This document shows, piece after piece, positions 47,788 to 64,000 of a stretch of DNA of 64,000 nucleotides. Every line of letters starts with the position of its first letter. Position 1 is the first letter of the stretch. Made by a program: the position numbers and the translations under genes. The stretch is from Streptosporangium sandarakinum (lineage in GTDB: Bacteria > Actinomycetota > Actinomycetes > Streptosporangiales > Streptosporangiaceae). Under the pieces are notes generated by a model that searched no databases, had not been told where the DNA came from, and worked only from the letters and a program-made list of their open reading frames with translations. The DNA lies in contig NZ_JACCCO010000003.1 of the NCBI RefSeq assembly GCF_013409935.1, positions 62,001 through 126,000 of the forward strand. Direction: 5' to 3'.

Positions 47788-48125
47788 CAGATTCTCCTCG
47801 CGCGGGCACCTCGGCCCGGGGGCCGAGAGGGAAGCGCGTCCTCCTTGTCGTCTTCCTCGTCTTCGTGGTGTCACAACCGCCGGCCCCGGCGCGCCCGGGA
47901 AGGGCTCGGGCGGTGCGCGGGGCGTGTGCGGACGGCGCCGGCGGCCGTTCCGCGTCTCGTTACCATACTCACGCCCGGTGACACTTCCGGACGCCCGTGC
48001 GCGCCGCCGGGCGCGGCGGGCGCGCCGGTCGCGGCCGGGAACATCCGGGAGCGGCCCCGGCGCCCCGTCCGCGGTCCGGAGCGCCCCGTGGGCCCGCCCC
48101 GCGTCCGGGGGAGCGGGCAGGCGTC
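47788..48125. other. 338-bp gap upstream of parC
   Basis: No gene seen. On the minus strand TATGGT (47967-47962) could be a -10 for parC with a long leader; the rest is GC-rich filler reaching the end of the GNAT gene. Confidence 0.4.
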
Positions 48126-48731
48126 CTATCCGTGCTCCGGGGCGGCCTCCGAGCCTCCGTACGGCCGCGCCCCCGCCCCCGGCCACGCGCCGGCCGGTGG
48201 GCCGTCGTAGGCGTCGTCCGGGACGTTGACCTTCGTGTCGTAGACCCGGAATCCCCGCGCCCGGTAGTTGGGCAGCGCGGCGGAGCCGTCGAGGGAGCAG
48301 GTGTGCAGCCACACCCGCCGGGTCGGCGCGAGGCTCGGCCTGCGGTCGGCGATGTCCCAGGCGCGGGCCGTGCCGGTCTCCAGCAGGCGCCCGCCGGCGC
48401 CCCTGCCGATCGCCCACGGCAGCAGGCCGAAGGAGGTGATCTCCACCGCCCCGTCGTCGCAGGGCAGGAGCTCGACGTAGCCCGCCGGGGTGCCGCGGTG
48501 GTAGGCCACCCAGGTCTCCACTCCGCCCGCCAGCCAGTCGGCCCACTGCTGCCAGGTCCACGGGAGCCGCTCGCTCCAGTGCCAGTCGCCGCCCACCGCC
48601 GTGTACAGGAACCGGCTGAACTCGGGGGAGGGCACCTCGGCGAGTGCGATGTCGAGCCCGATCGCCGGAGGCCGGGCCGCGATCAGGTCGGAGGGGGAGG
48701 TCTGTTCGAGGTACCAGGTGGTCACGTCCAT
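48126..48731 (-). CDS. GNAT family N-acetyltransferase
   Basis: 201 residues from ATG 48731. The acetyltransferase core is recognisable: [41 protein letters not shown] (the acetyl-CoA loop with GRGAGG) and [17 protein letters not shown] conserved N-terminal block [15 protein letters not shown] occurs in a recurrent actinobacterial subfamily. The substrate is unknown. The tail (about 178-201) is Gly/Pro-rich. It is divergent from the RecQ-type helicase. Confidence 0.85.
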
Positions 48732-48839
48732 GATGCCTGAATCCAACCACGCCGCGGGGGTCGCCGGTCCGCCGCCGGATGAACCCGGGAGATCCCGGTG
48801 ATGCGGAAAACAGTCCGCCGGAACTGGTAGCAATGAGCC

Positions 48840-50924
48840 GTGAGCGAAGAGCAGATGCTGCGCGAAGAGGCCGAGGAACGGCTGCGGGCGCTGGCCGGTG
48901 AGCACGCCCGGCTGCGCGAGGACCAGTGGTCGGCCATAAAGGCGCTGGTGATGGACCGCGGCCGGGCGCTCGTGGTGCAGCGCACCGGCTGGGGCAAGTC
49001 GGCGGTCTACTTCGTCGCCACCGCCCTGCTGCGCGAGCTGGGCGAGGGGCCGACCGTCATCGTCTCGCCGCTGCTGGCCCTGATGCGCAACCAGATCGCC
49101 GCCGCCGAGCGCGCCGGGATCCACGCCGTCACCGTCAACTCCGCCAACCCCGAGGAGTGGGAGCAGGTCTACGGCCAGGTCGCCGAGGGCATGGTCGACG
49201 TGCTGCTGGTCAGCCCCGAGCGGCTCAACAACCCCGAGTTCCGCGACCAGGTCCTGCCCGAGCTGGCCGAGAGCGCGGGCCTGGTCGTGGTGGACGAGGC
49301 GCACTGCATCTCCGACTGGGGCCACGACTTCCGCCCCGACTACCGCAGGCTGCGCACGCTGTTCGAGGGGCTGCCGGAGGGCGTGCCGGTCCTGGCCACC
49401 ACCGCCACCGCCAACGCACGCGTCACCCGCGACGTCGCCGAGCAGCTCGGCGAGGACACCCTCGTCCTGCGCGGCCCGCTGGAGCGCGAGAGCCTCCACC
49501 TGAGCGTCGTACGGCTGCGCGGCGCCGAGGAGCGCCTGGCCTGGCTCGCGCAGACGCTGCACGAGCTGCCGGGCTCGGGCATCGTCTACACCCTCACCGT
49601 GGCCGCGGCCCAGGAGATCGCCGCCTACCTCCGCGGGCAGGGCCACGAGGTGATCGCCTACTCCGGGCAGACCGAGCAGGCCGAGCGGCTGGCCGCCGAG
49701 CAGGCCCTGCTGGACAACAAGGTCAAGGCGCTGGTCGCCACCTCCGCGCTCGGCATGGGATACGACAAGCCCGACCTCGGCTTCGTCGTCCACGTCGGAG
49801 CGCCCCAGTCGCCCGTCGCCTACTACCAGCAGGTCGGCCGGGCCGGCCGCGGGGTCGAGCGGGCCGAGGTGATCCTGCTGCCCGGCCCCGAGGACCGCGA
49901 GATCTGGGCCTACTTCGCCTCCCTGGCGTTCCCCCCGGAGCCGGTCGTGCGGGCCGTGCTGGCGGCCCTGGAGGAGGGCGGCGTGCTGTCCACGGCCGCG
50001 CTGGAGAACCGCGTCGACCTCAGCCGCAGCCGCCTGGAGACCATGCTCAAGGTCCTCGACGTGGACGGTGCGGTGCGCCGGGTCAGGGGCGGCTGGGAGG
50101 CCACCGGCGAGCCGTGGCACTACGACGCCGACCGCTACGCCCGGGTGGCCGCGGCCCGCGAGGCCGAGCAGAAGGCCATGCTCGAATACCTCGGCACCAC
50201 CGAGTGCCGCGAGGTGTTCCTGCGCCGCTGCCTGGACGACGACACCGCCGTGCCCTGCGGCCGTTGTGACAACTGCACCGGCGCGCACCGCTCGCCCGAG
50301 GTGGCCGCGGAGGAGGTGGAGCGGGCGGCGGCGACCCTGCACCGGCCCGGCGTGGAGATCGAGCCGCGCAGGCAGTGGCCGACCGGGCTGGCCGACCTCA
50401 AGGGCCGGATCAAGCCGGAGCTGGGCGCCGGGACCGGCCGGGCGCTGGGCCGGCTGACCGACATCGGCTGGGGCAACCGCCTGCGCGGCATGCTGGCCGA
50501 GAACGCCCCCGACGGCCCGGTGCCCGACGACGTCTTCGCCGCGGTGGTGAAGGTGCTGTCGTCGTGGGAGTGGGCCGAGCGGCCGACGGCGGTGGTCGCG
50601 ATGCCCTCGGCGAGCAGGCCGCTGCTCGTCCGCAGCCTGGCCGAGCGGCTGGCCCAGGTCGGCAGGCTGTCCTTCCTGGGCGAGCTGGGCTACCGCTCCG
50701 GCCCGCCGGGACGCCAGTTCAACAGCGCCCAGCGGGTCCAGGCGGTCCGCGCCACCCTGGCCATGCCCTCGGCGCTCGGCGCGGCCGTGGCCCAGGCGGG
50801 CGGCCCGGTCCTGCTGGTCGACGACCGCGTCGACACGGGCTGGAGCATGACCCTCGGCGCCGCGATGATCCGCCACGCCGGGGCCCCGGCCGTGCTGCCG
50901 CTGGCCCTCGCCGTGACGAGCTGA
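48840..50924 (+). CDS. RecQ-family DNA helicase with C-terminal phosphoribosyltransferase-like domain
   Basis: 694 residues from GTG 48840. Helicase motifs: Walker [11 protein letters not shown] (Lys53), DEAH at 152-155, motif III ATTATAN, motif [12 protein letters not shown] zinc site CREVFLRRC ... CGRCDNC (about 456-480) and a RecQ-like winged region follow. The last about 190 residues end in a PRPP-binding-type motif [14 protein letters not shown] (Asp661, Asp662), as in ComF-like transferases. The helicase should unwind recombination intermediates; the role of the transferase-like tail is unknown. Confidence 0.88.
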
Positions 50925-50944
50925 CCCCGTCCGCGGCCGGCCCA

Positions 50945-50986
50945 CGGGTACGGCGGAGCCGGCCGCGGCAGGCTCCGCCGTACCCG
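50945..50986. terminator. Bidirectional hairpin between the RecQ-type and PfkB genes
   Basis: A perfect 16-bp stem (50945-50960 with 50971-50986) with a 10-nt loop, in a convergent gap. Confidence 0.75.
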
Positions 50987-51046
50987 GCCACCGGGCCACC
51001 GGGCCGGCCGTACGAGCCGGTCGCGGGGCGGGACGTGCGGGAGAGG

Positions 51047-51940
51047 TCAGAGGCGGGGGCGGGCGCCGAGGTGTGAGATCGCCTTGGCGGCCAGCCGGCA
51101 GCCGGCGGCGAGTGCCTCCGCCGGGGGCTTCTTGTCCAGCCAGGAGGGCAGGAACCCGGCGACGAAGGCGTCGCCGGCGCCGGTGCCGTCCACCACGCGG
51201 TCCACCGCCTCGGCCGGGCACCTCACCGGCTCACCGCGGCCGTTGGCGTACCACAGGGCGCCCTCGTCGGCGAGCTTGACGACGACCTGGGGGAACCACG
51301 CGGTGAGCACCTTGGCCGCCGCGGCGGGGTCGTCGCGGCCGGTCAGCACCTTGGCCTGGTCGGCGTTGGCGAACAGCAGCTTGGCGTCCTCGGTCCACTC
51401 CAGGAACGGCTCGGCGCCCGTCCGCTCCAGGGGCGCGGAGGAGGAGCAGTCGACCGAGACGGTCATCCCGGCGCGGCCGGCCAGCTTCAGGGCGGCGAGC
51501 CCCGCCTCGCGGGAGCCCTCGTTGATCAGGGTGTAGCCCGACAGGTGCAGGTGGCCGCCCTGGACGAACAGGTCGCGCGGCAGGTCCTCGGGCGACAGGG
51601 CGGCGTTGGCCCCGGGGTCGGACAGCATGGTGCGCTCACCCTTGTGGGTGATGAGCACCACGCACGTGCCGGTCGGCCGCTCGGGGTCCATGACCAGGCG
51701 GGCGTCGACGCCGTAGCCCATCAACTCCATGTCGCGGTTGCGGCCGGTGATGTCGGCCCCCCGGCGCCCGATGAAGGCGACCTCGGCGCCCTCGACGGCG
51801 AGCCAGGAGGAGATGTTGGCGCCCGAGCCGCCGCCGTGCATGGTGACGATCGCCGGTGTGTCGCTGGCGCGGGCCAGCGGGTAGCGAGCCCGCGCGACGG
51901 CGTCGGTCATGAGATCGCCCACCACGACCACCCGCGTCAT
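51047..51940 (-). CDS. PfkB/ribokinase family sugar kinase
   Basis: 297 residues from ATG 51940 (AAGGTGGTGA upstream). The N-terminal GGGSGANISSWLAVEGAEVAFIGRRG and C-terminal DGTGAGDAFVAGFLPSWL (catalytic Asp in GAGD) are the two PfkB signatures. It phosphorylates a sugar or nucleoside; specificity cannot be told. It is divergent from the GNAT/ACS fusion gene. Confidence 0.92.
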   Translation of the reverse strand: MTRVVVVGDLMTDAVARARYPLARASDTPAIVTMHGGGSGANISSWLAVEGAEVAFIGRRGADITGRNRDMELMGYGVDARLVMDPERPTGTCVVLITHKGERTMLSDPGANAALSPEDLPRDLFVQGGHLHLSGYTLINEGSREAGLAALKLAGRAGMTVSVDCSSSAPLERTGAEPFLEWTEDAKLLFANADQAKVLTGRDDPAAAAKVLTAWFPQVVVKLADEGALWYANGRGEPVRCPAEAVDRVVDGTGAGDAFVAGFLPSWLDKKPPAEALAAGCRLAAKAISHLGARPRL

Positions 51941-52115
51941 GATGTCACCACCTTGCTGCCTTCGATACTGAAGTGCCTCTAGCCGCGAAAAACTTAACAG
52001 CTTCCGGACCGCGTATGGGGTCGGGAGCGAAGAGCGGAGCGTAGTCGATGCACAAGCGTTGTGGGAATCCGCCCGGCAGGTCCGGCTTGTGTGATTCACG
52101 TTTACTCTCGGGACT

Positions 52116-54746
52116 GTGGAGGCTGCTCAGTACCCCGCCCACTGGGAGGCGGACGTCGTCCTGTCGGACGGCGGGACCGCCCATGTCCGCCCGATCCATC
52201 CGGCCGACGCCGACCTGCTGCGCGCGTTCTACTCGCGGCTGTCGGAGGAGTCGATCTACTTCCGCTTCTTCGGCCCCAGACCCCGCCTCTCGGACCGGGA
52301 GATCACCTGGTTCACCAACGTCGACTACACCGACCGGGTGGCACTGATCGCCACGATCGGCACGGAGATGGTGGCGGTCATCCGCTACGACCGGATCGAC
52401 CCGGCCGAGGCCGAGGTGGCCTTCCTCGTCGAGGACGCCCACCAGGGCCGCGGAGTCGCCTCGGTGCTGCTGGAGCACCTGGCCGCGACGGCCCGGGAGC
52501 GGGGGATCTCCCGGTTCGTCGCCGACGTGCTGCCGGCCAACCAGAAGATGATGACCGTCCTCAAACAGGCCGGCTACACCGCGCAGAGCCGCTTCGCCGA
52601 CGGCGTGGTCCGGATGACCCTCGACCTCACCCCCACCGAGACCTCCCAGGAGGTGACCGCCGCCCGCGAGCACCGGGCCGAGGCGCGCTCGATCAAGCGG
52701 CTGCTGTCCCCGGGATCGGTGGCCGTCGTCGGCGCCGGCCGCGAACCCGGCGGGGTCGGGCAGACCGTGCTGCGCAACCTGCTCGCCGCCGACTTCACCG
52801 GGCCGGTGTACCCGGTGCACCGTGAGGCCCGGGCGGTCGCCGGGGTGCGGGCCTACCCCAGCGTGACGGCCATCGACGGCGAGGTGGACCTCGCCGTGCT
52901 GGCCGTACCCGCCGAAGGGGTGATCGAGGTGGTCAAGGAGTGCGCGGAGAAGGGCGTGCGCGGGCTGATCGTGGTCTCCTCCGGGTTCGGCGAGACCGGC
53001 CCCGAGGGTCGGGCCAGGCAGGACGAGCTGGTCCGCATCGCCCGCGCGTACGGCCTGCGCGTCGTCGGCCCCAACTGCCTCGGCGTCGCCAACACCGACC
53101 CGGCGGTCCGGCTGAACGCCACGCTCGCCGCGACCGTCCCCGGCCGGGGGCGGGTCGGCTTCTTCAGCCAGTCCGGCGCGCTGGGCACCGCCCTGCTGCA
53201 GCGGGTGGCCCAGCGTGGCATGGGCATCTCCTCCTTCGTGTCGGCGGGCAACCGGGCCGACGTCTCGGGCAACGACCTGCTGCAGTACTGGGAGGAGGAC
53301 CCGGCCACCGACGTGATCCTGCTCTACCTGGAGTCGCTGGGGAACCCCCGCAAGTTCGCCCGCCTCACCCGGCGGATCTCCCGGCGCAAGCCGATCGTGG
53401 TGGTCAAGAGCGGCGGCGCCACCCAGAACGTGCCGACCGGCCACGCCGCGCCGGTGCTCGGTCTGCCCGACACCGCGCTCAGCTCGCTGTTCGAGCAGGC
53501 GGGGGTGATCCGGGTGGACGACCTGGTCCAGCAGTTCGACGTGGCGCAGTTGCTGGCCCACCAGCCGCTGCCGGCCGGGCCCCGGGTGGGCCTGGTCAGC
53601 AACTCCGACGCGATGGCGCTGCTCGCGGCGGACGCCTGCGTGCGGGCCGGGCTGGAGCCCCGGCCGCCGGTCAACCTCGGCGCGGCCGCGGGGGCGGCCG
53701 AGTTCGGCGGGGCCCTCGCGTCGGTGCTGCCGGACGTGGACGCGGTCGTCGTGATCTACATGCCGCCGATCCCCGGCCCGGCCGCCGAGGTCGCCGCCGA
53801 GCTGCTCCGGGTCTCGCGCGACCAGGGCAAGCCGGTGCTGGCCACGTTCGAGGGCCGGACCGGCATGCCGCCGGAGCTGCGGACGGACCCGGTGCCCGGG
53901 TGGGGGTCCATCCCGTCGTACCCGGCGCCGGAGGAGGCGGTCCGCGCGCTGTCCCACGCCGTGCGGTACGCCCGCTGGCGGGAGCGGCCCGCCGGGGTCC
54001 CGGAGGAGCCGGACGGCGTGGACACCGCCGCCGCGCGGCGGCTGGTGCGGGCCGGGCTGCGGGAGGGGGCCGCCGAGACCGACGCCGCCGGGCTGCTCGC
54101 CTGCTACGGGGTACGGGTGTGGCCGGCCGAGCGGGTGGACTCCGCGGAGCACGCCGTGGCGGCGGCGGAGCGGCTGGGCTGGCCGGTGGCGCTCAAGGCC
54201 GCCGACCCCGAGGCGGCCAAGCGCGCCGGGACCGTACGGCTCGGCCTGACCGGCCCCGACGGGGTGCGCGAGGCGTTCGAGGGGCTGTCCCGGCAGCTCG
54301 GCCTGGACGCCGCCCTCGCGGTGCAGCGGATGGTCCCGCAGCCCGCGGTGCCGACGGTGATCGGAGTCGTCGAGGACGCCGCGTTCGGCGCGGTCGTGTC
54401 GTTCGGGCTGGGCGAGGTCACCGCCCGGCTGCTGCGCGACGAGGCGTACGGGCTCGCCCCGCTCAGCAGGGAGGACGCCGCGGCCCTGGTGCGGGTGCCG
54501 CGCACGGCGCCCCTGCTGCTGGGCGGGTACGGCTACCCGCCGGTCGCGGTGGAGGCCCTCACGGACCTGCTGGTCCGGGTCGGGCGGCTGGCCGACGACC
54601 TGCCCGAGGTGGTCAGGCTCGACCTCGACCCGGTGCTGGTGGGGGAGTCGGAGGCGATCGTCCTGGGGGCGCGCGCCGTGCTGCGCGAGCCGCCCGGTCC
54701 ACGGATCGACGGCGGCCCGCGCCGCCTGGGCGGGTTCCCGGCGTGA
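52116..54746 (+). CDS. GNAT / NDP-forming acyl-CoA synthetase fusion (Pat-like lysine acyltransferase)
   Basis: 876 residues from GTG 52116. An N-terminal GNAT domain (about 15-165) has VAFLVEDAHQGRGVASVLLEHL. It is fused to a CoA-binding/ligase region (SVAVVGAGREPGGVGQTVLRN, VVGPNCLGVAN, GFFSQSGALGTALL) and an ATP-grasp-like C-terminal part (ACYGVRVWPAERV, WPVALKAADP). This is the reverse order of E. coli Pat (PatZ) but recurs in actinobacteria, where such proteins acetylate and inactivate acyl-CoA synthetases. The catalytic His of the ligase half is not evident, as expected for a regulatory, non-synthetase half. Confidence 0.88.
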   Translation: MEAAQYPAHWEADVVLSDGGTAHVRPIHPADADLLRAFYSRLSEESIYFRFFGPRPRLSDREITWFTNVDYTDRVALIATIGTEMVAVIRYDRIDPAEAEVAFLVEDAHQGRGVASVLLEHLAATARERGISRFVADVLPANQKMMTVLKQAGYTAQSRFADGVVRMTLDLTPTETSQEVTAAREHRAEARSIKRLLSPGSVAVVGAGREPGGVGQTVLRNLLAADFTGPVYPVHREARAVAGVRAYPSVTAIDGEVDLAVLAVPAEGVIEVVKECAEKGVRGLIVVSSGFGETGPEGRARQDELVRIARAYGLRVVGPNCLGVANTDPAVRLNATLAATVPGRGRVGFFSQSGALGTALLQRVAQRGMGISSFVSAGNRADVSGNDLLQYWEEDPATDVILLYLESLGNPRKFARLTRRISRRKPIVVVKSGGATQNVPTGHAAPVLGLPDTALSSLFEQAGVIRVDDLVQQFDVAQLLAHQPLPAGPRVGLVSNSDAMALLAADACVRAGLEPRPPVNLGAAAGAAEFGGALASVLPDVDAVVVIYMPPIPGPAAEVAAELLRVSRDQGKPVLATFEGRTGMPPELRTDPVPGWGSIPSYPAPEEAVRALSHAVRYARWRERPAGVPEEPDGVDTAAARRLVRAGLREGAAETDAAGLLACYGVRVWPAERVDSAEHAVAAAERLGWPVALKAADPEAAKRAGTVRLGLTGPDGVREAFEGLSRQLGLDAALAVQRMVPQPAVPTVIGVVEDAAFGAVVSFGLGEVTARLLRDEAYGLAPLSREDAAALVRVPRTAPLLLGGYGYPPVAVEALTDLLVRVGRLADDLPEVVRLDLDPVLVGESEAIVLGARAVLREPPGPRIDGGPRRLGGFPA

Positions 54747-54783
54747 GGTGAAAGCGCTGCCCCGGACAGGGCAGGATGGACCC

Positions 54784-55374
54784 ATGAGGGATACCCGACT
54801 CTCGGCATCCGGACTGCGCGACGCCATCGACCGCAGCGGCTACTACCCCGACCTGGTCACCGACGCGGTCGAATCCGCCCTGGGCAAGGAGCCGGTGACG
54901 GCGTACGTGGTGCACCACGAGGCCACCTTCGACCCGGCGATGGAGGTGCGCAGGCACGTCACCGTCCTGGTGCTCTCACCCACCCGGCTGCTCGTCTGCC
55001 ACACCGACGAGCACCCCGCGGTGGAGGGGGTCTCGGCGTCGCACGCCTCCACGACCACCGAGGCGGTGCGTCTCAGCCGGATCCAATCGGTCTCCGTCAC
55101 CCGGGTGGTCCCCGACCCCGCCTCCTACGTGCCGGGCGTGCCGCCCACGGAGGTGACGCTCACCATCGGCTGGGGGGCCATCTCCCACGTCGATCTGGAG
55201 CCCGCCACCTGCGGCGACGAGAACTGCGAGGCCGACCACGGCTACACCGGTGCCGTCACGGCCGACGACCTGTCGCTGCGCGTGAGCGAGGCGGCCGACG
55301 GCCCCGAGGCGGTCACCCACGTGCTGACCTTCGCCAAGGCGCTGTCGGAGGCCACCGCCCGCGCCGCCTCCTAG
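54784..55374 (+). CDS. DUF5998 family protein
   Basis: 196 residues from ATG 54784. Conserved actinobacterial blocks: GYYPDLVTDAVESALGKEPVTAYVVHHEATFD, RRHVTVLVLSPTRLLVCHTDEH and TLTIGWGAISHVDLEPATCG. The fold looks like a beta-rich PH-like domain; no enzymatic motif. Function unknown. Stop-to-start distance from the fusion gene is 37 bp, suggesting co-transcription. Confidence 0.85.
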   Translation: MRDTRLSASGLRDAIDRSGYYPDLVTDAVESALGKEPVTAYVVHHEATFDPAMEVRRHVTVLVLSPTRLLVCHTDEHPAVEGVSASHASTTTEAVRLSRIQSVSVTRVVPDPASYVPGVPPTEVTLTIGWGAISHVDLEPATCGDENCEADHGYTGAVTADDLSLRVSEAADGPEAVTHVLTFAKALSEATARAAS

Positions 55375-55473
55375 CCGTCTCCACGGCCCGGACACGGCGC
55401 GCGTGCCCACCGCCCGCGCCGCCTCGTGGCCGTCCGCCCCGGATCCCGAACTCCTTGCGAAGGTGAGCACCTG

Positions 55474-56286
55474 ATGAGCCCGCTGATCACTCCGGCCGAG
55501 CTGGCGGCCCTGGACGACCCGGCCGTCCTGGACGTGCGATGGAGGCTCGGGGGCCCGCCCGGGCGCGACGCCTACCGCGAGGGCCACATTCCCGGCGCGG
55601 TCTTCTGCGATCTCAACGCCGACCTCGCGGCGCCGCCCGGACCGGAGGGCCGCCACCCGCTGCCGGCGGCCGGGGCGTTCCAGGAGGCGATGCGCCGACT
55701 GGGCGTGTCCGGCTCCCGCCCGGTCGTCGTCTACGACGAGGCCGACGCCACCGCCGCCGCGCGGGCGTGGTGGACGCTGCGCTACTTCGGCCACCCCGAC
55801 GTCCGCGTCCTCGACGGCGGCCTGCGCGCCTGGGTCGCCGAGGGGCGGCCCGTCGCGGCGGGGGAGGAGTCCGCGCGGCCCGGTGACTTCGTCGCGCGGC
55901 CGGGCGGGATGCCCGTCCTCGACGCGGGCCAGGCGCTGGAGCTGGCCACCGAAGGGGTACTGCTGGACGCCCGCGCCGCCGAGCGCTACCGGGGCGAGGT
56001 CGAGCCGATCGACCCCGTCGCCGGGCACATCCCCGGCGCGGTGAGCGCCCCCACCTTCGAGAACGTCGATCCCGCCGGGCGCTTCCACCAGCCGGAGTTC
56101 CTGCGCGAGCGGTTCAACACCCTGGGCGCCGTGCCGGGCGTCGCGGTCGGCGCCTACTGCGGCTCAGGCGTGACGGCGGCGCACCAGGTGCTCGCGCTGG
56201 ACGTGGCGGGCCTCCCCGCCGCCCTCTACGTCGGCTCCTGGTCCAACTGGGTGGCCGACCCCTCCCGGCCGATCGCCACCGGCTGA
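55474..56286 (+). CDS. Sulfurtransferase (two rhodanese domains)
   Basis: 270 residues from ATG 55474. Rhodanese domain 1 (about 5-125) is inactive-type (DVRWRLGGPPGRDAYREGHIPGA, no Cys loop). Domain 2 (about 140-268) carries the active-site Cys229 in CGSGVTAAH, the CxSGVT pattern of thiosulfate/3-mercaptopyruvate sulfurtransferases. It transfers sulfane sulfur to cyanide or thiols in the cytoplasm. It converges on the CHAT gene. Confidence 0.93.
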   Translation: MSPLITPAELAALDDPAVLDVRWRLGGPPGRDAYREGHIPGAVFCDLNADLAAPPGPEGRHPLPAAGAFQEAMRRLGVSGSRPVVVYDEADATAAARAWWTLRYFGHPDVRVLDGGLRAWVAEGRPVAAGEESARPGDFVARPGGMPVLDAGQALELATEGVLLDARAAERYRGEVEPIDPVAGHIPGAVSAPTFENVDPAGRFHQPEFLRERFNTLGAVPGVAVGAYCGSGVTAAHQVLALDVAGLPAALYVGSWSNWVADPSRPIATG

Positions 56287-56422
56287 CCCGGTCCCGGCCG
56301 GGCGGCTCCCGCCGGCCGGCCGGGATGGACGGTTCTGGTCCGGCCGGTTCCCGGTGATCGTCCGGGACGGCCGGTTCAGGTCCGGCCGGAGCCGGTTCCG
56401 ATCCGATGAGGCGGCCGGGGCC

Positions 56423-58912
56423 CTACGGCCGGGCGGCCGGGACCGGCCGGTCGCCGTACCCGAAGCAGGCGAACCCCGCCACCCCGGTCTTCGCGCTCGC
56501 CGCGGCCAGCGCCCGGGCCGGCGGATGCCCGGCGGCCAGCAGCTCGTGGAAGACCTCCATCAGCGCCAGCGCCGGCTCGTCGCGCACCGGCACCAGGCTG
56601 GCCACCACGCACCGCGACCCCACCGACAGGAAGGCCCCGGCCAGCCCCAGCGGCGCCCCGTCGGCGGGCACCCGCGCCATGCCCGCGTCGCACGCCGACA
56701 GCACCGCCAGCGTGGGCGGCCGGCGCAGCCGCAGCAGGTCGTAGGCCATCAGCGGCCCGTCGTCGAGATGGATGCTGGACAACAGCGGGCTGCCCGGGGA
56801 GAACACCCCGTGCGCGGCCAGGTGCGCCACCTCGGCGCCCTCCAGCGCCGCCAGCACCTCGGCCCGCCGCGCCGCCACCCGCTCCGTGCCGGGACGGCGG
56901 GCGGCGACCATGGCCGCCTCGGCGCCGGCGCAGCGCAGCGCGGGACCGGCGACCGCCACGGTCCTTCCGCCCGGTCCGTCGGGCGCCCGGTGCCCGGCCA
57001 GCCAGGCCGCCGCGGCGGACGCCACGGTGACGGGACGACCGGCGTTCAGCGGCAGCACCGGCCAGGGCAGGGTGTGCAGCGAACCGGTCGGCACGACGAC
57101 CAGCGGCCGGTCGCCGAGCGGCCGGCGCAGCGCGCCGAACAGCAGCCGCTCCAGCAGCGCCGCGTCGCCGTCCAGTCCCGGGACCCGGCCGTCGCGCAGG
57201 TGTGCCCGGCGCAGGCCGTACCGGAGCCGTACGGTGGCCTCGGCGACGGCGGTGAAGGGGCCGAGCCGGCGCAGCGCGACGCGCTCGGGGGTGACGGCGA
57301 CGGCCACCAGCCCGTCGCCGTCGCGGACGAACTCCACCAGCGCCGCCTCCCCCAGAGCGGCCCGCAGCTCCTCGACATCGGGCGCCGCGGGCCGCCCGGC
57401 GCCCCCGGCGACCGCCCGCCACCGTTCGGCCCAGGCGAGGACCGCGCGGCCCCGCCCCGTCTCCAGCGCGAGCGCCAGCCCGAAGCGGGCCAGCGGCTCA
57501 CCGGCGCCGACGGCGTACGCCCGGATCGCGGGATCGCCGAGGGCCGACGCGGCGGAGCCCGCCTCGACCAGCCCGGCGCGGACGGCCGCGAACGCGCCGC
57601 GCCGGTCGCCGGACAGCGCCCGGTGCAGCGCGGCGGCCCGGTGGCGCAGCAGCCCCGGGGCGCGGCGGGCGAGGACGGCGAGCTGCTCGCGGGCGCCCGC
57701 CCGGTCGCCCAGCCACAGGACGGTCTCGGCCGCGGTGAACCGCAGCTCACGGGACAGGTCGGGGCGGCCCGCGCCGTCGAGGTCGGCCGCGCACGAGAGC
57801 AGCTCGGCGGCCAGCTCCCGGGACGGTGGGCCGGACGCCAGGCGAGCCCGCAGCAGCACCTCGGCGGCGAGCGGCACCAGCGCCGTCCTGCCCTGCGCGG
57901 CCAGGGCGGCCGCGGCCGGCTCGGCGTGCTCGGCGGCGCGGCGCGGGTCGCCGGTGCGCAGCTCCACCCGGGCGAGCAGCAGCCGGGCGTCGGCCAGCGC
58001 CACCTCCGCCCCCGCCGCCGAGAGCTCCGGCACCGCCAGGTCGAGCAGCGCCCGCGCCTCACCCGGCAGGTGGGCGTCGACCAGCGCCTCCGCCAGATCG
58101 CAGCGCATCGTCGCAAGCCGCTCCGGAAAGCCGAACAGGTTGTTCTCGGCGCGCCGGTAGGCGGCGAACGCGGCGGGCAGGTCGCCGCGCCGGGCGGCCA
58201 GGAACGGCAGGTTGCCCTCGGCGAGGGCGAGCACGTGGTCCAGGCCCGCGCCCCGCGCCAGCTCCGCGCAGCGGCGCAGGTCGGCCTCGGCCTCCCCGAA
58301 GCACCCCAGGAACACCCTGCTCAGCCCCCGGTTCAGCAGGGCCCCGGCGAGATAGTGGGCGTCGCCGTCCAGGGCGCCCACGGCCCGGTCGCACTGGGCG
58401 AGGGCCTCGGCGTAGCGGCCCAGGCGGGTCAGCGCCCCGGCCCGGTGCACGGCGAGCCTGGCCGTCTCGGCGGGCGGCAGGCACGGCTCGGCCGCCGTCG
58501 CGACGGCCAGCGCCCGCCGGGGGTGGCCCAGCTCGGTGAGGACGTGCACCAGCGACAGCCGAGCCTGCGCCGCCCGGTACGGCAGGCCCGCCCGCAGCGC
58601 CACACGCACCGCGCGCCGCAGGTGCTCCTCGGCCAGTGGCAGGTCGCCCAGCTCCCGCGCGGCCACCGCCAGCGCCCGGTGGGCGACCGCCGCGGCCTCC
58701 GCGGAGCTCCAAGGGTTCGCGGAGCTCCAAGGGTTCGCGGAGCTCCAGGGGTCCGCGGAGCTCCAGGGGTTCGCGGAGCTCTCGGGGTCCGCGGAGCTCC
58801 AGGGGTCCGCGGAGCGGAGCACGTCGCGGGCCAGCTCCCGTGCGGCGGCCGGGTCGCTGCCGGACAGCTCCAGTGCCCGCTCGGCGGCGGCGAGCGCTTC
58901 GTCGGTGGTCAC
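56423..58912 (-). CDS. TPR-CHAT caspase-like protease
   Basis: 829 residues from GTG 58912, immediately after the stop of the small beta-rich gene (TAG-GTG). N-terminal about 480 residues form TPR-like helical repeats; a six-fold hexapeptide repeat (NPWSSA-type, about 35-70) interrupts them. The C-terminal CHAT domain (about 530-829) keeps His701 (HLAAHGVFSPGSP) and Cys741 (LSACDAG), spaced as in active caspase-like CHAT proteases. The TPR part probably recognises a partner or substrate. It is the last gene of the leftward set starting with the subtilase. Confidence 0.92.
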   Translation of the reverse strand: MTTDEALAAAERALELSGSDPAAARELARDVLRSADPWSSADPESSANPWSSADPWSSANPWSSANPWSSAEAAAVAHRALAVAARELGDLPLAEEHLRRAVRVALRAGLPYRAAQARLSLVHVLTELGHPRRALAVATAAEPCLPPAETARLAVHRAGALTRLGRYAEALAQCDRAVGALDGDAHYLAGALLNRGLSRVFLGCFGEAEADLRRCAELARGAGLDHVLALAEGNLPFLAARRGDLPAAFAAYRRAENNLFGFPERLATMRCDLAEALVDAHLPGEARALLDLAVPELSAAGAEVALADARLLLARVELRTGDPRRAAEHAEPAAAALAAQGRTALVPLAAEVLLRARLASGPPSRELAAELLSCAADLDGAGRPDLSRELRFTAAETVLWLGDRAGAREQLAVLARRAPGLLRHRAAALHRALSGDRRGAFAAVRAGLVEAGSAASALGDPAIRAYAVGAGEPLARFGLALALETGRGRAVLAWAERWRAVAGGAGRPAAPDVEELRAALGEAALVEFVRDGDGLVAVAVTPERVALRRLGPFTAVAEATVRLRYGLRRAHLRDGRVPGLDGDAALLERLLFGALRRPLGDRPLVVVPTGSLHTLPWPVLPLNAGRPVTVASAAAAWLAGHRAPDGPGGRTVAVAGPALRCAGAEAAMVAARRPGTERVAARRAEVLAALEGAEVAHLAAHGVFSPGSPLLSSIHLDDGPLMAYDLLRLRRPPTLAVLSACDAGMARVPADGAPLGLAGAFLSVGSRCVVASLVPVRDEPALALMEVFHELLAAGHPPARALAAASAKTGVAGFACFGYGDRPVPAARP
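58701..58808. repeat. 18-bp tandem repeats in the CHAT gene
   Basis: Six copies at an exact 18-bp period (starts 58701, 58719, 58737, 58755, 58773, 58791), core GCGGAGCTCC, plus a partial copy. They encode the hexapeptide run and keep the frame, so copy number can vary without loss of function. Confidence 0.92.
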
Positions 58913-59377
58913 CTACGGGCGGATCCTGGTCCAGCTGGTGACGACGGGGACCTGCCCCGGCCGGTGGCACACCACGCTGAACCAGCCCGGGGGCAGGCCC
59001 GTCACGGCGAACTGACCGGTCGCCGACAGCTCCCGCGCCTCGGTGAGGTGCGGGGTGCGGACCTCGACCCGCGTCCCCTCCTCCGGGCAGGGGGAGACCT
59101 GCCCGGCCAGATCGACCAGGCCGTCCATCGAGGTGACCTCCAGGTCGACGGTGAGCCCGGCCGTGGTGAAGCGGAGCAGCCGCTCCTCCCCGCCGTCGCG
59201 GACGCCCCGCGGTGCCGGCGCCGCCACGGGCAGGGCCGTGGCGGCGCCGGGCAGCCGCAGGCCGAAGGCAGCGCGCGCGGTCGCCGGGACGTGACCTGGC
59301 ACGGGATCCCGGCCGGCCGCCAGGCGGAGCGCGGCGATCAGGGACTCGTCGTCGATCGCGGCGGGACGTCGGGTCAA
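58913..59377 (-). CDS. 154-aa beta-rich protein of the ECF/CHAT operon
   Basis: TTG 59377 lies 7 bp after CAGGAGG and overlaps the sigma stop (TTGA). The N-terminal about 55 residues are helical with DPVPGHVPATARAAFGLR, a motif found in the small partner proteins of ECF-CHAT loci. The C-terminal about 95 residues are beta-rich (GLTVDLEVTSMDGLVDLAGQV, RVEVRTPHLTE, GQFAVTGLPPGWFSVVC, VVTSWTRI), like a carboxypeptidase-regulatory or transthyretin-type sandwich. It may restrain the sigma factor or be a protease target; neither is proven. Confidence 0.7.
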   Translation of the reverse strand: MTRRPAAIDDESLIAALRLAAGRDPVPGHVPATARAAFGLRLPGAATALPVAAPAPRGVRDGGEERLLRFTTAGLTVDLEVTSMDGLVDLAGQVSPCPEEGTRVEVRTPHLTEARELSATGQFAVTGLPPGWFSVVCHRPGQVPVVTSWTRIRP

Positions 59378-59943
59378 GATGCGGCCTCCTGGGCGGTGAG
59401 CATGGTGCGTAGTCGGTTCAGGCACCGGCCCCGGGTGGGGCCGTAGCTGCCGCTGGGCATGCCCAGGCGTCCGGCGAGCTGGTGGACGCCCGCGTCGGGC
59501 GCCGTCGCCATCAGCCGGAACAGCGAGCGGCACGGCTCCTGCATCGCCTCGACGGCCAGCCAGAGACGGCGGCCCTCGTCGGCGCTGAGCACGAGCAGGG
59601 CCGGGTCGGGGGCGTCCTCGGCCGGCGACGAACCGGGGCGGAACCCGCCGGCGTCGGCCGGATCGGCGACCGGCCGCTCGCCGCGGCTCCGCCTGCCGAG
59701 CAGGGACGCCTCCCGCCGGACCGTGGTGAACAGCCATGAACCGAGCCGGCCGGGGTCGCGGATGGTGTGCAGGCTCTCCAGCAGTCGCAGCCAGGTGCCC
59801 TGCACCGCGTCCGCGGCGTCCGCCGCGCTCAGCCCGTAGGCGCGGGCCACCGACCACAGGGGGCCGGAGAACCGGTTCACCAGCGTGTCCCATGCCGCCT
59901 GGTCGCCCGCCAGCGCGGCGTCGATCGTGTGCTGGTCGCTCAC
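59374..59943 (-). CDS. ECF sigma factor of the CHAT locus
   Basis: 189 residues from GTG 59943 (CGGAGG 6 bp upstream); GTG 59970 is a poorer start. Sigma-2 (AWDTLVNRFSGPLWSVARAYGLSAADAADAVQGTWLRLLES) and sigma-4 (VEAMQEPCRSLFRLMATAPDAGVHQLAGRLGMPSGSYGPTRGRCLNRLR) are clear. There is no classical anti-sigma gene; the overlapping small gene takes that place. It probably drives its own operon. Confidence 0.9.
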   Translation of the reverse strand: MSDQHTIDAALAGDQAAWDTLVNRFSGPLWSVARAYGLSAADAADAVQGTWLRLLESLHTIRDPGRLGSWLFTTVRREASLLGRRSRGERPVADPADAGGFRPGSSPAEDAPDPALLVLSADEGRRLWLAVEAMQEPCRSLFRLMATAPDAGVHQLAGRLGMPSGSYGPTRGRCLNRLRTMLTAQEAAS

Positions 59944-60004
59944 CGGCGCCTCCGAAGCCGTCCCGGACACTCTGTGTGTCTCAATGGTGACTTTGGGTGA
60001 GACT

Positions 60005-61168
60005 TTACCTTGGTCCGGCCACGACGACGCCGAGATCTGAGATTTTGCGGTTCCGTTCCGGATCGAGAACGTACGCGGCGGCCTCGGCGGGCGTCCGCTC
60101 CCGGGCCGCGGCGGCGATCGCGCCGCTGACCACGGCGGCGGCGAAGGAGGTGCCGCTCCAGCGCGCGTAGCCGTGGAACGCCCCGTGCTCCAGGAAGGAG
60201 CTGGTCAGCCACTCGCCGGGGGCGCAGGCGTCGACCCAGGGGCCGTGGGCCGAGAACGGCGCCCGGTCCCGCCCGGCCGCGTCCAGCGCGCCGACGGCGA
60301 TCACCCCGGGCAGCGCGGCCGGCCAGAACGGCCGGTCGGAGGCGGTGTTGCCCGCGCAGGCCACCGCGACGGTGCCCGGCAGGCCGGCCAGGGCGGCCTC
60401 CAGCAGGGGGGAGGGCCGGTCGTCGTAGGTGTGCCCGCCCATGGAGAGGTTGAGCACCTGGGGCGGCTCGTCCCGCAGCCGCGCCAGCGCCCGCAGCAGC
60501 CCGGCCTCGTCCCCGACGCCTCGGCCGTCCAGCACCCGCAGCGGGCGCATCCGCGCCTCCGGGGCCGACCGCAGGATCAGCCCGGTGACGAACGTGCCGT
60601 GCCCGGCCTGGGCGTCCAGCCGCCCGTCGCCGTCGGCGTCGGGCACCTCGGCGGCATCGTGCCGCCGTTCGAGGAACCACGGGAGGTCCCGCCACCAGGG
60701 GTGCGCGGCCAGGCCGGTGTCGGCGACCGCGACGGTCACCGGCCCGCCCGGCCCGCCCGGCCCGCCGGGTCCGCCCGGTCCGCCGCCCGGGACATCGCCG
60801 GGCACCCCGCCGTTCCCGCCGTCTCCGGCGTCCCCCGGGCCGTCCGGCCCGTCCCCCGGCACGGCGCCGGGCGGCGGAGGAGGCGGCGCGGGGAAGGGGC
60901 GGGAGGCCGGGCCGCCGAAGAAGAGGGGCTGGCCCACCAGGATGTGGTTGGGCGAGGCCGCGTGCCCGCGGTCGCGAACCGTGGCGGCCAGATCGCAGAC
61001 GTCGACGCCGGGCAGGAGCCGTATCCGGAAGACCCCGTCGGCCTCGGCCGCCGCGGCGGTCCACCGGGCGACGGCGGCCATGCCCGCGGCGTCCGTGAGC
61101 AACTGGTCGCGCCTGATCAGGGCCGGTGCTCCCGGGACGGGCTCCACCCGTTCGATGTCGGCGTCCAT
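60005..61168 (-). CDS. Subtilisin-like (S8) serine protease without signal peptide
   Basis: 387 residues from ATG 61168 (GGAGAG upstream). The catalytic triad is complete: Asp150 (VAVADTGL), His190 (AGHGTFV), Ser341 (GTSFAAAV), with oxyanion Asn274 (CAGNTAS). An N-terminal prodomain-like region (about 15-85) is followed by a Pro/Gly-rich linker (about 88-145) encoded partly by 9-bp repeats. No signal peptide or TM helix is seen, so it is probably cytoplasmic, unusual for subtilases. It lies 61 bp upstream of the ECF gene on the same strand. Confidence 0.93.
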   Translation of the reverse strand: MDADIERVEPVPGAPALIRRDQLLTDAAGMAAVARWTAAAAEADGVFRIRLLPGVDVCDLAATVRDRGHAASPNHILVGQPLFFGGPASRPFPAPPPPPPGAVPGDGPDGPGDAGDGGNGGVPGDVPGGGPGGPGGPGGPGGPVTVAVADTGLAAHPWWRDLPWFLERRHDAAEVPDADGDGRLDAQAGHGTFVTGLILRSAPEARMRPLRVLDGRGVGDEAGLLRALARLRDEPPQVLNLSMGGHTYDDRPSPLLEAALAGLPGTVAVACAGNTASDRPFWPAALPGVIAVGALDAAGRDRAPFSAHGPWVDACAPGEWLTSSFLEHGAFHGYARWSGTSFAAAVVSGAIAAAARERTPAEAAAYVLDPERNRKISDLGVVVAGPR

Positions 61169-61372
61169 GTTGCTCTCCGGAGGGTCGGGCGGCGGGTCGC
61201 GGGATCGTCCTCCTTCGAGGATGCCCCAGCCGGAGGACGGTCGCACGGCATCTCGGTATGACCCCCCTCTGGTGCGACGTCACAACCGACGGTAGTCTCT
61301 CCTACAGTCACTTGTGATCATCCTGGGCGAGGCCGTTGGGGAAGGCGCACCTCGTACGAAACGGGAGGTCCG

Positions 61373-61867
61373 GTGTCTGCTCGTGGCGTGCTTTACGTCC
61401 ACTCGGCTCAGCCTGCGCTGTGCCCGCATATCGAATGGGCGGTCGCGGGTGTCCTTGGCGTGCCCGTTGACCTGAACTGGACCCCGCAGCCGGCCGCGCC
61501 CGGCCACGTGCGCGCGCAGGCCGAATGGGTCGGCCGCCCGGGGACGGCGGCGGCCATCACCTCGTCCCTGATGGGCTGGCAGCGCATCAGGTTCGAGATC
61601 ACCGAGGACCCCTCAACGGGTGCCGACGGGTCCCGGCACGCCTACACGCCGTCCCTCGGCGCCTTCACGGCGGTGATCGGCGCCTCGGGTGACATCCTGG
61701 TGCCCGAGGACCGCCTGCGCTCGGTCATGCTCATGGCGCGGCAGGGCCGGGTGGTGCTGGAGGAGGAGCTCGACAAGCTGCTCGGCAAGCAGTGGGACGC
61801 CGAGCTGGAGTCGTTCCGGTACGCCGGCGAGGGCGCGCCGGTCCGCTGGCTGCACGCCGCCGTCTGA
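61373..61867 (+). CDS. DUF3145 family protein
   Basis: 164 residues from GTG 61373 (GGGAGG upstream). Family blocks: RGVLYVHSAQPALCPHIEWAV, VRAQAEWVGRPGTAAAITSSL, RFEITEDPSTGADGSRHAYTPSLG and LDKLLGKQWDAELESFRYAGEG. The family is found next to the fatty-acid synthase genes fabF and accD in actinomycetes, as here. Function not established; a regulatory or acyl-carrier-associated role is possible. Confidence 0.9.
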   Translation: MSARGVLYVHSAQPALCPHIEWAVAGVLGVPVDLNWTPQPAAPGHVRAQAEWVGRPGTAAAITSSLMGWQRIRFEITEDPSTGADGSRHAYTPSLGAFTAVIGASGDILVPEDRLRSVMLMARQGRVVLEEELDKLLGKQWDAELESFRYAGEGAPVRWLHAAV

Positions 61868-62017
61868 CGGCGCGCGGATCCCGCCGCCCCGCGCGGCCAC
61901 TCGGCGGCGCGCGGCACAGCCTTCTGACGGCGCGCGCCCCTTCATACAGCCGTCCGGCGGCGCCGACCTCCCCGCACGGCCGCCCGGCGGCGCGCCGACC
62001 CCTCCCCGTGCAAGCAG

Positions 62018-62051
62018 GACGCCCCCGCCGGCATCGGCCGGCGGGGGCGTC
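62018..62051. terminator. Hairpin 1 between DUF3145 and accD
   Basis: A perfect 14-bp stem (62018-62031 with 62038-62051) with loop CATCGG. The upstream 61868-62017 stretch holds degenerate GGCGGCGCGC-type repeats and no gene. Confidence 0.8.
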
Positions 62052-62066
62052 GCGTGTCACGCGGGT

Positions 62067-62099
62067 CTTCCGGAACCCGCGGGCCGCGGGTTCCGGAAG
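62067..62099. terminator. Hairpin 2 between DUF3145 and accD
   Basis: A perfect 15-bp stem (62067-62081 with 62085-62099) with a 3-nt loop, ending 4 bp before the leftward accD stop. With hairpin 1 it forms back-to-back terminators for the convergent pair. Confidence 0.8.
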
Positions 62100-62103
62100 G
62101 GGG

Positions 62104-63525
62104 TCAGAGCGGGATGTTGCCGTGGGCGCCGCGCGCCGGGGTGGCCTGGGCGAGGACCTTGGCGATGGCGCCGCGGGTCTCCTCCGGCTTGATCACCTCG
62201 TCCACCACGCCGATCTCGACCGCCCGGTCCAGGCCGCCCGCCACGACCTCGTGCTCCTCGGCGAGCCGGGCCTCCAGAGCCGCCCGCTCCGGCTCGGGGG
62301 CGGCCGCGAGCTCCCTCCGCTTGAGGATGCGCACCGCGGCCACCGAGCCCATCACCGCGATCTGCGTGGTGGGCCAGCCGAACACCTTGGTCGCGCCCAG
62401 GGCGCGGGAGTTCATCGCGATGTAGGCGCCGCCGTACGCCTTGCGGGTGACCAGCGTGACGCGCGGCACCGACGCCTCGGCGAAGGCGTGCAGCAGCTTG
62501 GCGCCGCGGCGCACCACGCCGTCGTGTTCCTGGCCGACGCCCGGGAGGTAGCCGGGGACGTCCACCACCACGACCAGCGGCACTCCGAAGGCGTCGCACA
62601 TGCGGACGAACCGCGCCGCCTTCTCGGCGGAGGTCGAGTCCAGGCAGCCGCCCAGCCGCATCGGGTTGTTGGCGATGACCCCGACGGTCCGGCCGTCGAG
62701 GCGGCCCAGCGTGGTGACGATGTTCGGCGCCCACTTGGGCTGCAGTTCCACGCCCGGCTCGTCGAGCAGTCCCTTGACCAGCGGCTTGATGTCGTAGGCG
62801 CGGCGGGGGTTCTCGGGGAGCAGGTCGGAGAAGTCGACCTCCTCCGCCTCGCCGCGGAAGCGGCCCTGGTGGCCGAGCAGCACGGCCAGGCGCCGGGCCT
62901 GGACGTACGCCTCGGTCTCGGTCTTGGTCACCACGTGCACCACGCCGCTGCGCTTGCTGTGCGGCTCCGGTCCGCCGAGGGCGGCCATGTCGATCTGCTC
63001 GCCGGTGACGCTGCGCACCACGTCGGGGCCGGTGACGAAGATGCGCCCCTCGTCGGAGAGGATCACGATGTCGGTCAGCGCCGGGCCGTAGGCGGCGCCG
63101 CCGGCCGCGGGGCCCACCACGACCGACAACTGCGGCACCACGCCGGAGGCCCTGGTCATCGCGGCGAAGACGCGGCCGACCGCGTGCAGCGACTCCACGC
63201 CCTCGGCCAGTCGCGCGCCGCCGGAGTGCCACACCCCGATGATCGGGACCCGCTCGCGGACCGCCACGTCGTAGGCGTGCACGATGTGTTCGCATCCCGC
63301 CGAGCCCATCGCGCCGCCCTGGACCCGGGCGTCGCTGACGAAGACCACGACCGGCACGCCCTCGACGCGGCCCATGGCCGCCAGGGCGCCGCTGCGGTCG
63401 ACCGGGGTGATCAGCCGGATCGAGCCCTCGTCGAGCAGCGCCGCCATCCGCACCTGGGGGTCGCGGGGATCGGCCGCCTCCCCGTCGGGGGAGCCGCTCA
63501 CCACCCTGTTGTCGAGCACGGTCAT
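62104..63525 (-). CDS. accD: Acyl-CoA carboxylase carboxyltransferase (beta) subunit
   Basis: 473 residues. It carboxylates acetyl- or propionyl-CoA, making malonyl- or methylmalonyl-CoA with a biotinylated alpha subunit encoded elsewhere. The two crotonase-fold halves show GGARLAEGVESL, GPAAGGAAYGPALTDIVILSD, and later DVPGYLPGVGQEHDGVVRRGAKLLHAF and VTRKAYGGAYIAMNSR. It lies 13 bp after fabF on the same strand, so it belongs to the fatty-acid operon. Confidence 0.94.
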   Translation of the reverse strand: MTVLDNRVVSGSPDGEAADPRDPQVRMAALLDEGSIRLITPVDRSGALAAMGRVEGVPVVVFVSDARVQGGAMGSAGCEHIVHAYDVAVRERVPIIGVWHSGGARLAEGVESLHAVGRVFAAMTRASGVVPQLSVVVGPAAGGAAYGPALTDIVILSDEGRIFVTGPDVVRSVTGEQIDMAALGGPEPHSKRSGVVHVVTKTETEAYVQARRLAVLLGHQGRFRGEAEEVDFSDLLPENPRRAYDIKPLVKGLLDEPGVELQPKWAPNIVTTLGRLDGRTVGVIANNPMRLGGCLDSTSAEKAARFVRMCDAFGVPLVVVVDVPGYLPGVGQEHDGVVRRGAKLLHAFAEASVPRVTLVTRKAYGGAYIAMNSRALGATKVFGWPTTQIAVMGSVAAVRILKRRELAAAPEPERAALEARLAEEHEVVAGGLDRAVEIGVVDEVIKPEETRGAIAKVLAQATPARGAHGNIPL

Positions 63526-63538
63526 CTCGGGGCTCCTG

Positions 63539-64000
63539 TCAGACGCTGGTGAAGGCCACGGCGACGTCGTGGCCGCCGAACCCGAACGAGTTGTTGATCG
63601 CGGCGATCCGTCCGCCGGGGAGCTCGCGCGGGTCGCGGCGCACGATGTCCACCTCGACGCCGTCGTCGAGGTCGTCCACGTTGATCGTGGCGGGGACGAC
63701 CCGCTCCTGCAGGGCGAGGACGGTGAAGACCGACTCGATGCCCCCGGCGCCGCCGAGGAGGTGGCCGGTCATCGACTTGGTGGAGGTGACCAGCGGGTGG
63801 CCGCCGACGACCTCCTTGATCGCGATGGTCTCCACCACGTCCCCGGCGGGGGTGGAGGTGGCGTGCGCGTTCACGTGCCTGATGTCCTCGGGGGCCAGGC
63901 GCGCGTCCTGCAGGGCGCGGCGCATGGCGAGCATCACCCCCGCGCCGGTCGGCTCGGGCTGGGCGATGTGGTGGGCGTCGGCGGAGTAGCCGACACCTGC
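63539..64000 (-). CDS. fabF: Beta-ketoacyl-ACP synthase II, C-terminal part (partial)
   Basis: The last 153 residues; the start and active-site Cys lie beyond the right edge. The catalytic histidines are visible in VNAHATSTPAGD and STKSMTGHLLGGAGG, and the terminal NNSFGFGGHDVAVAF is a KAS signature. It extends fatty-acid chains and is co-transcribed with accD. Confidence 0.95.
   Translation of the reverse strand, partial: AGVGYSADAHHIAQPEPTGAGVMLAMRRALQDARLAPEDIRHVNAHATSTPAGDVVETIAIKEVVGGHPLVTSTKSMTGHLLGGAGGIESVFTVLALQERVVPATINVDDLDDGVEVDIVRRDPRELPGGRIAAINNSFGFGGHDVAVAFTSV

Follow-up and report, generated by a model that had tools for sequence, protein, structure and literature searches.

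In the extracytoplasmic function (ECF) sigma factor group ECF54, the conserved gene context includes proteins with carboxypeptidase, subtilase, and CHAT domains, and proteolysis has been proposed as the mechanism of its members in a 2022 review (PMC8999054), whose passage on the group traces it to Huang et al. 2015 and Casas-Pastor et al. 2021. The review names no tested member, and we found no experimental test of how an ECF54-type gene set works. In type III-E CRISPR systems, the protease Csx29 has been shown experimentally to cleave Csx30, an inhibitor of CASP-sigma (PMC10028731), and in Myxococcus xanthus DdvA is the anti-sigma factor of the ECF sigma factor DdvS (PMC4374960). Here we compare with these systems a row of four leftward genes, encoding an S8 subtilase, an ECF-type sigma factor, a small beta-sandwich protein (the beta protein), and a TPR-CHAT protease, which lies in a 64,000-nucleotide stretch of Streptosporangium sandarakinum DNA (the window; contig NZ_JACCCO010000003.1, positions 62,001 to 126,000).

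The gene set is not new, having already been catalogued by context as ECF54. The window shares with that group an ECF sigma factor without a classical anti-sigma factor, a context of CHAT, subtilase, and 'carboxypeptidase'-type proteins, and an origin in Actinobacteria. We assign the window sigma factor to ECF54 as a prediction from gene context and not from a group-model score. The third protein of this context shows only a weak CarboxypepD_reg match in the window, and the 'carboxypeptidase' of the review is probably this CarboxypepD_reg-like beta protein, not a peptidase. What is new here is a promoter motif and its asymmetry between the sigma and S8 genes on one side and the CHAT gene on the other. 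Compared with a preliminary description of the same DNA, we add the catalogued ECF54 context, the different regulation of the two proteases, and the absence from the window copy of the promoter motif found in its relatives.

Loci were gathered with the sigma factor as bait, and the counts given here describe what accompanies this sigma factor. Each of the 15 congeneric relatives yielded a strong match to the sigma factor, and more distant matches came from other families. The congeners show the same four-gene order, with DUF3145 adjoining S8 wherever the retrieved stretch extends that far. A scan of named genomes yielded 80 further loci, of which almost all belong to Actinomycetota, with representatives in Amycolatopsis, Catenulispora, Catellatospora, Dactylosporangium, Kribbella, Solirubrobacteraceae, and Acidimicrobiia. 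After near-duplicate removal 103 loci were left, and 80 of these have at least 4.5 kb on both flanks; a complete set of four within 6.5 kb is found in 51 of the 80, with the genes arranged in about ten different orders. Distribution across the phylum is patchy, the beta family occurring in 30 of 296 Actinomycetota genomes of an evenly drawn sample, although each of the 16 genomes sampled from the window's genus has the system. Because the genes recur together across Actinomycetota and their catalytic residues are essentially invariant, we conclude that the four genes form a real conserved set and not a chance cluster.

The S8 gene (60005..61168, minus strand, as for all features below; 387 amino acids) encodes an N-terminal region of about 140 residues without a Pfam match, followed by a catalytic domain (Pfam Peptidase_S8, 1.2e-25) with the Asp150, His190, and Ser341 triad of a peptidase S8. 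His and Ser are conserved in 65 of 65 aligned sequences and Asp in 64, the remaining one being a gapped fragment. For the N-terminal region, the known prodomain family Inhibitor_I9 was considered and rejected, as it is listed for none of 20 members. The TPR-CHAT gene (56423..58912; GTG start, 829 amino acids) contains TPRs and a CHAT match (1.2e-29; 56495..57154, residues 587-806) with the His-Cys dyad of a CHAT peptidase, His701 and Cys741, found in 72 of 72 aligned sequences. Between the two protease genes lie those of the sigma factor (59374..59943; GTG start, 189 amino acids) and the beta protein (58913..59377; TTG start, 154 amino acids). The S8 and sigma genes are separated by 61 bp, the sigma and beta genes overlap by 4 nt (TTGA), and the beta and CHAT genes abut with a 0-bp junction. 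No signal-peptide-like or transmembrane-like segment is present in the four proteins, the highest 19-residue hydropathy mean being 1.6. The preliminary description had claimed four leftward open reading frames with these junctions, complete catalytic residues in both proteases, and no export signal in either; positions, strand, and junctions are all as claimed, the residues are present as numbered and near-invariant in relatives, and the hydropathy scan agrees with it on both proteases.

The sigma factor has the ECF architecture of region 2 (Pfam Sigma70_r2, 6.9e-12) and a divergent region 4 (GSYGPTRGRCLNRLR) that is discernible in the alignment, with GSYGPTRGR in the window versus a group consensus of GSIGPTRxR. 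Against the NCBIfam model sigma70-ECF it gives an E value of 1.2e-10 over residues 17-181, at 41.3 bits slightly below the cut-off of 42.9. Sigma relatives at two loci, L065 and L067, stand without a beta gene, amid polysaccharide-cluster-like genes.

The beta protein has no catalytic family match, its sole Pfam trace being a sub-threshold CarboxypepD_reg (E = 0.013), a family found at E<0.01 in 4 of 25 beta family members. Its AlphaFold2 model (predicted local distance difference test, pLDDT, 88.9) consists of two short N-terminal helices (residues 10-21 and 29-39) and a beta sandwich resembling CarboxypepD_reg. Fold matches in the PDB are common beta-sandwich resemblances that give no functional clue (best VIA Z 9.4, to CrdA; best Foldseek E 0.04), and the sequence profile finds a single PDB match, at E = 0.97. 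With two exceptions, non-redundant loci having both a sigma and a beta gene carry them side by side in the same direction, and in 44 of 89 loci the two overlap by exactly 4 nt. The beta protein is the best candidate partner of the sigma factor, as predicted from this arrangement.

When the DNA preceding the lead gene in 74 loci was searched for bipartite words without a prior motif, GTATC-gap-CTC emerged, with a score of 18.6 versus 4.1 for the best shuffle. Aligned instances read approximately gaTGTATCAG...CTCTGT, GTATC and CTC being separated by 17 or 18 nt. From 27 instances a matrix was built that finds 171 sites in 1.88 Mb of loci, 162 of them outside called genes in DNA of which 80% is called coding; this intergenic excess is partly circular, since the training set drew in part on these loci and on upstream regions, and the loci include some near-duplicates. 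More independent checks are the shuffle comparison and the sites before detached S8 genes described below (shuffled rate at score 15: 0.01 per kb). Among the 32 non-redundant loci bearing a site before sigma or S8, the motif precedes 20 of 24 lead S8 genes, 17 of 19 lead sigma genes, and none of 21 lead CHAT genes (Fisher 5e-9, CHAT versus S8); over all loci, it precedes CHAT in 0 of 46. Such a pattern would be the expected trace of an autoregulated ECF sigma factor that also drives S8, with CHAT made independently, and we infer that the motif is recognized by this sigma factor. As the motif lies before sigma and S8 and never before CHAT, CHAT can be placed upstream of the autoregulated sigma factor. 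We see no sign of a wide regulon, motif counts over eight genomes being no higher than those of a reversed-pattern control, and no common theme links the further genes that follow a motif site (matrixin, haem peroxidase, DUF5995, DoxX, and several without a family). The matrixin-type metallopeptidase (L068:8078-9904) and the haem peroxidase (L088:4534-6087) lie behind strong sites near the sigma locus. At L091, L096, and L111, a 230-residue protein encoded downstream of CHAT has its own copy of the motif, and it matches CarboxypepD_reg where tested (L091).

The four genes divide into two sub-modules. Whole-genome searches of seven genomes in which the sigma-beta locus has neither CHAT nor S8 nearby found, in every one of them, a CHAT gene of this type beside an S8 gene elsewhere, the pair being divergent in six and convergent in one (L210). 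The cleanest detachment is seen in G355, G356, and G357, where a single CHAT gene was found with no sigma or beta gene adjoining. The detached pair L212 has its own sigma and beta genes and L213 its own sigma gene, and G353 and G354 additionally hold another S8-sigma-beta set. The promoter motif stands before the detached S8 gene in L210, L213, L214, and weakly L215 (scores 23.6, 23.6, 18.7, and 15.5, the L213 site being located only relative to the S8 domain), and no motif was found before that of L209 or L211. Sigma and beta thus stay coupled, and CHAT and S8 are a second pair able to sit elsewhere in the genome.

The AlphaFold2 model of the TPR-CHAT protein (pLDDT 92.8) shows a TPR superhelix over approximately residues 1-503 and a caspase/separase-like C-terminal part (524-829). 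It matches Csx29 (Foldseek E 7e-14; VIA Z 29.1, 526 residues, root-mean-square deviation, rmsd, 14.3) and DdvA (8rot, 8rw5; Z 22.9, 530 residues, rmsd 5.0; sequence profile E 7.7e-10), and separases are also among its fold matches. Several alignments have a large rmsd, and a fold match speaks for arrangement or ancestry, not function. Like type III-E CASP/Craspase, the window combines an ECF sigma factor, a TPR-CHAT protease with a comparable fold, and a proposed cleavable sigma partner, but it adds an S8 protease. Despite the fold match, the protein falls outside the Csx29 family, with 12.3 bits against the NCBIfam Csx29 cut-off of 300. Among direct repeats of at least 22 nt with short spacing, window positions 46000-64000 hold only one tandem repeat, which is coding, and two families of two copies each; no search for Cas7-11 was made. 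DdvS/DdvA likewise pairs an ECF sigma factor with a CHAT-domain regulator, the PDB entries of DdvA describing a transmembrane anti-sigma factor annotated 'CHAT domain-containing protein'. In contrast, the window CHAT protein is soluble by prediction, as its highest 19-residue hydropathy mean (1.62) lies within the conserved catalytic domain, leaving no DdvA-type transmembrane segment, and the next gene after sigma encodes a separate beta protein. Eukaryotic separase shares the predicted helical-repeat superhelix and separase-type C-terminal protease, whereas identity in the fold alignments is about 9-17%, the window protein stands in a bacterial regulatory context, and no securin-like partner was identified.

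We tentatively favor, at somewhat less than even chances, an ECF54-type sigma switch that operates in the cytoplasm under protease control, with CHAT as constitutive sensor, the beta protein as soluble anti-sigma factor, a self-amplifying sigma factor, and S8 as output or feedback. Its computed basis is the division into two sub-modules, the conservation of the catalytic residues, and an autoregulatory-type promoter before sigma (or sigma-beta) and S8 but not CHAT. In this switch, the beta protein would bind the sigma factor, and the TPR-CHAT protein, made independently of sigma, would cut the beta protein or the sigma-beta complex once its TPR superhelix is triggered. The freed sigma factor would then transcribe its own operon and S8, which would act as an amplified output or a feedback protease. 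Cleavage of the beta protein by a protease to free sigma is a plausible hypothesis, and the set of TPR-CHAT, sigma, and putative substrate here parallels Csx29, CASP-sigma, and Csx30 (PMC10028731). The promoter asymmetry, the split between sigma-beta and CHAT-S8, and the Csx29-, separase-, and DdvA-like fold turn a context-only ECF54 entry into a testable circuit, and they suggest that the use of TPR-CHAT proteins for protease-controlled sigma switching extends beyond CRISPR systems.

Several observations weigh against this proposal. No anti-sigma factor is found among the PDB fold matches of the beta protein, and a distance comparison of the four proteins gave no partner discrimination (correlation of 0.51 for sigma-beta versus 0.55 for sigma-CHAT). 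The site-bearing loci are only 32 of the 103 non-redundant ones, and the best site upstream of S8 or sigma in the window, which lies upstream of S8, scores 2.7 versus at least 17 for counted sites. The mechanism put forward for ECF54 is also the opposite one, with proteases keeping sigma low (PMC8999054). In that published view there would be no anti-sigma factor: the proteases would degrade sigma, induction would follow from halted proteolysis, S8 would provide negative feedback and CHAT constant clearance, and the beta protein would be an adaptor or protease regulator. This view was derived from the same gene context, and a CHAT gene without and an S8 gene with a sigma-type promoter also fit standing clearance plus feedback. 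It nevertheless leaves unexplained why the tightest coupling of sigma is with a protein lacking a catalytic family match, and the probable identity of the review's 'carboxypeptidase' with that protein further argues against it; we regard it as rather unlikely. A CRISPR-free counterpart of the Craspase arm, for which we see a limited but real chance, would have a vertically kept chromosomal TPR-CHAT sensor protease cutting the soluble beta anti-sigma factor, a sigma factor amplifying itself and S8, and, in the window's genus, a leader element (described below) that sequesters the start codon and replaces the transcriptional loop.

The TPR-CHAT protein could also itself be the anti-sigma factor, holding sigma on its TPR/CHAT surface and using its protease for release or on another substrate, with the beta protein as an auxiliary. 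The structural and profile match to DdvA, the anti-sigma factor of DdvS (PMC4374960), is consistent with this, but the window protein has no transmembrane-like segment, and CHAT is often apart from sigma and not behind its motif, whereas the beta protein stays with sigma; such an arrangement seems improbable to us. We are still more doubtful of a conflict or death module, in which sigma activation under phage attack or stress would release CHAT and S8 as executioners that kill or halt the cell. Two intact intracellular proteases, the occurrence of CHAT and subtilase profiles in a defence library (as weak matches), and the motif before S8 in many loci would fit it. Against it, the set keeps one conserved order beside DUF3145 in 16 of 16 sampled genus genomes, in contrast to mobile defence islands, defence-system models give only weak hits to protease domains, and genome-wide motif counts do not rise above the control. 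A chance cluster of unrelated genes or an annotation artefact is hardly credible given the recurrent four-gene sets in many orders, the invariant catalytic residues, and the detached CHAT-S8 pairs. The interpretation in the preliminary description therefore stands in part: the four-gene neighborhood it expected across actinomycetes, the catalytic proteases, the beta-rich protein as closest gene partner of sigma, and a switch turning on its own genes (through a motif that the window copy lacks) are borne out, and the death programme is not.

Unlike part of its relatives, the window copy has no GTATC-N17/18-CTC and carries an RNA-like leader before sigma. TGTATC-N17/18-CTCT has no site in the window's own genome. 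The 18-nt leader element TAAAGTCTCACCCAAAGT (59990..60007) begins at the S8 stop codon and contains a CUCACC that could form base pairs with the GGUGAG covering the GTG start codon of sigma (59939-59944). This pairing is largely kept in 17 aligned sequences, with the start-codon side also under coding constraint. Between the element and the sigma start lies an inverted repeat or hairpin (59965..59982; GAACAC...GTGTTC in congeners), in which one pair shows compensatory changes from A-T to G-C. Of 16 congeneric genomes, 15 have the element, each once and at this locus, with zero control hits, and no second copy was found in the own genome allowing up to 3 mismatches. Near the S8-sigma region, Rfam gives no more than two matches, both under gathering scores. 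The pairing is suggestive of an RNA element, although a promoter or operator is possible instead. For the window's genus, these features suggest that the leader may couple sigma translation to S8 translation: S8 heads the gene row there without a sigma-type promoter, and in the switch that we favor the leader would tie the synthesis of sigma to that of S8.

Conservation is also strong, both within the genus and outside it, in the intergenic region between S8 and DUF3145 (window 61169-61372), a block upstream of S8 that probably represents the promoter and leader of DUF3145. A locus in a metagenome bin labelled 'Acidobacteriota' closely resembles one from an Actinomycetes bin (L115, L116) and is probably mis-binned. 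The window's genome (G000) holds two more CHAT-domain open reading frames, at C1:2145682-2146563 and C1:310154-310288 (L001, L003; frames of 1460 and 881 amino acids), and no sigma or beta match lies around the first of them (L073). Near the N-terminus of the TPR-CHAT protein, an 18-bp tandem repeat of 6.6 copies (58698..58815) encodes in-frame PWSSAN/PWSSAD repeats, a part modelled with low confidence. At this place the match to the near-identical relative G001 (L005) covers more DNA than residues, which suggests that the two differ in length.

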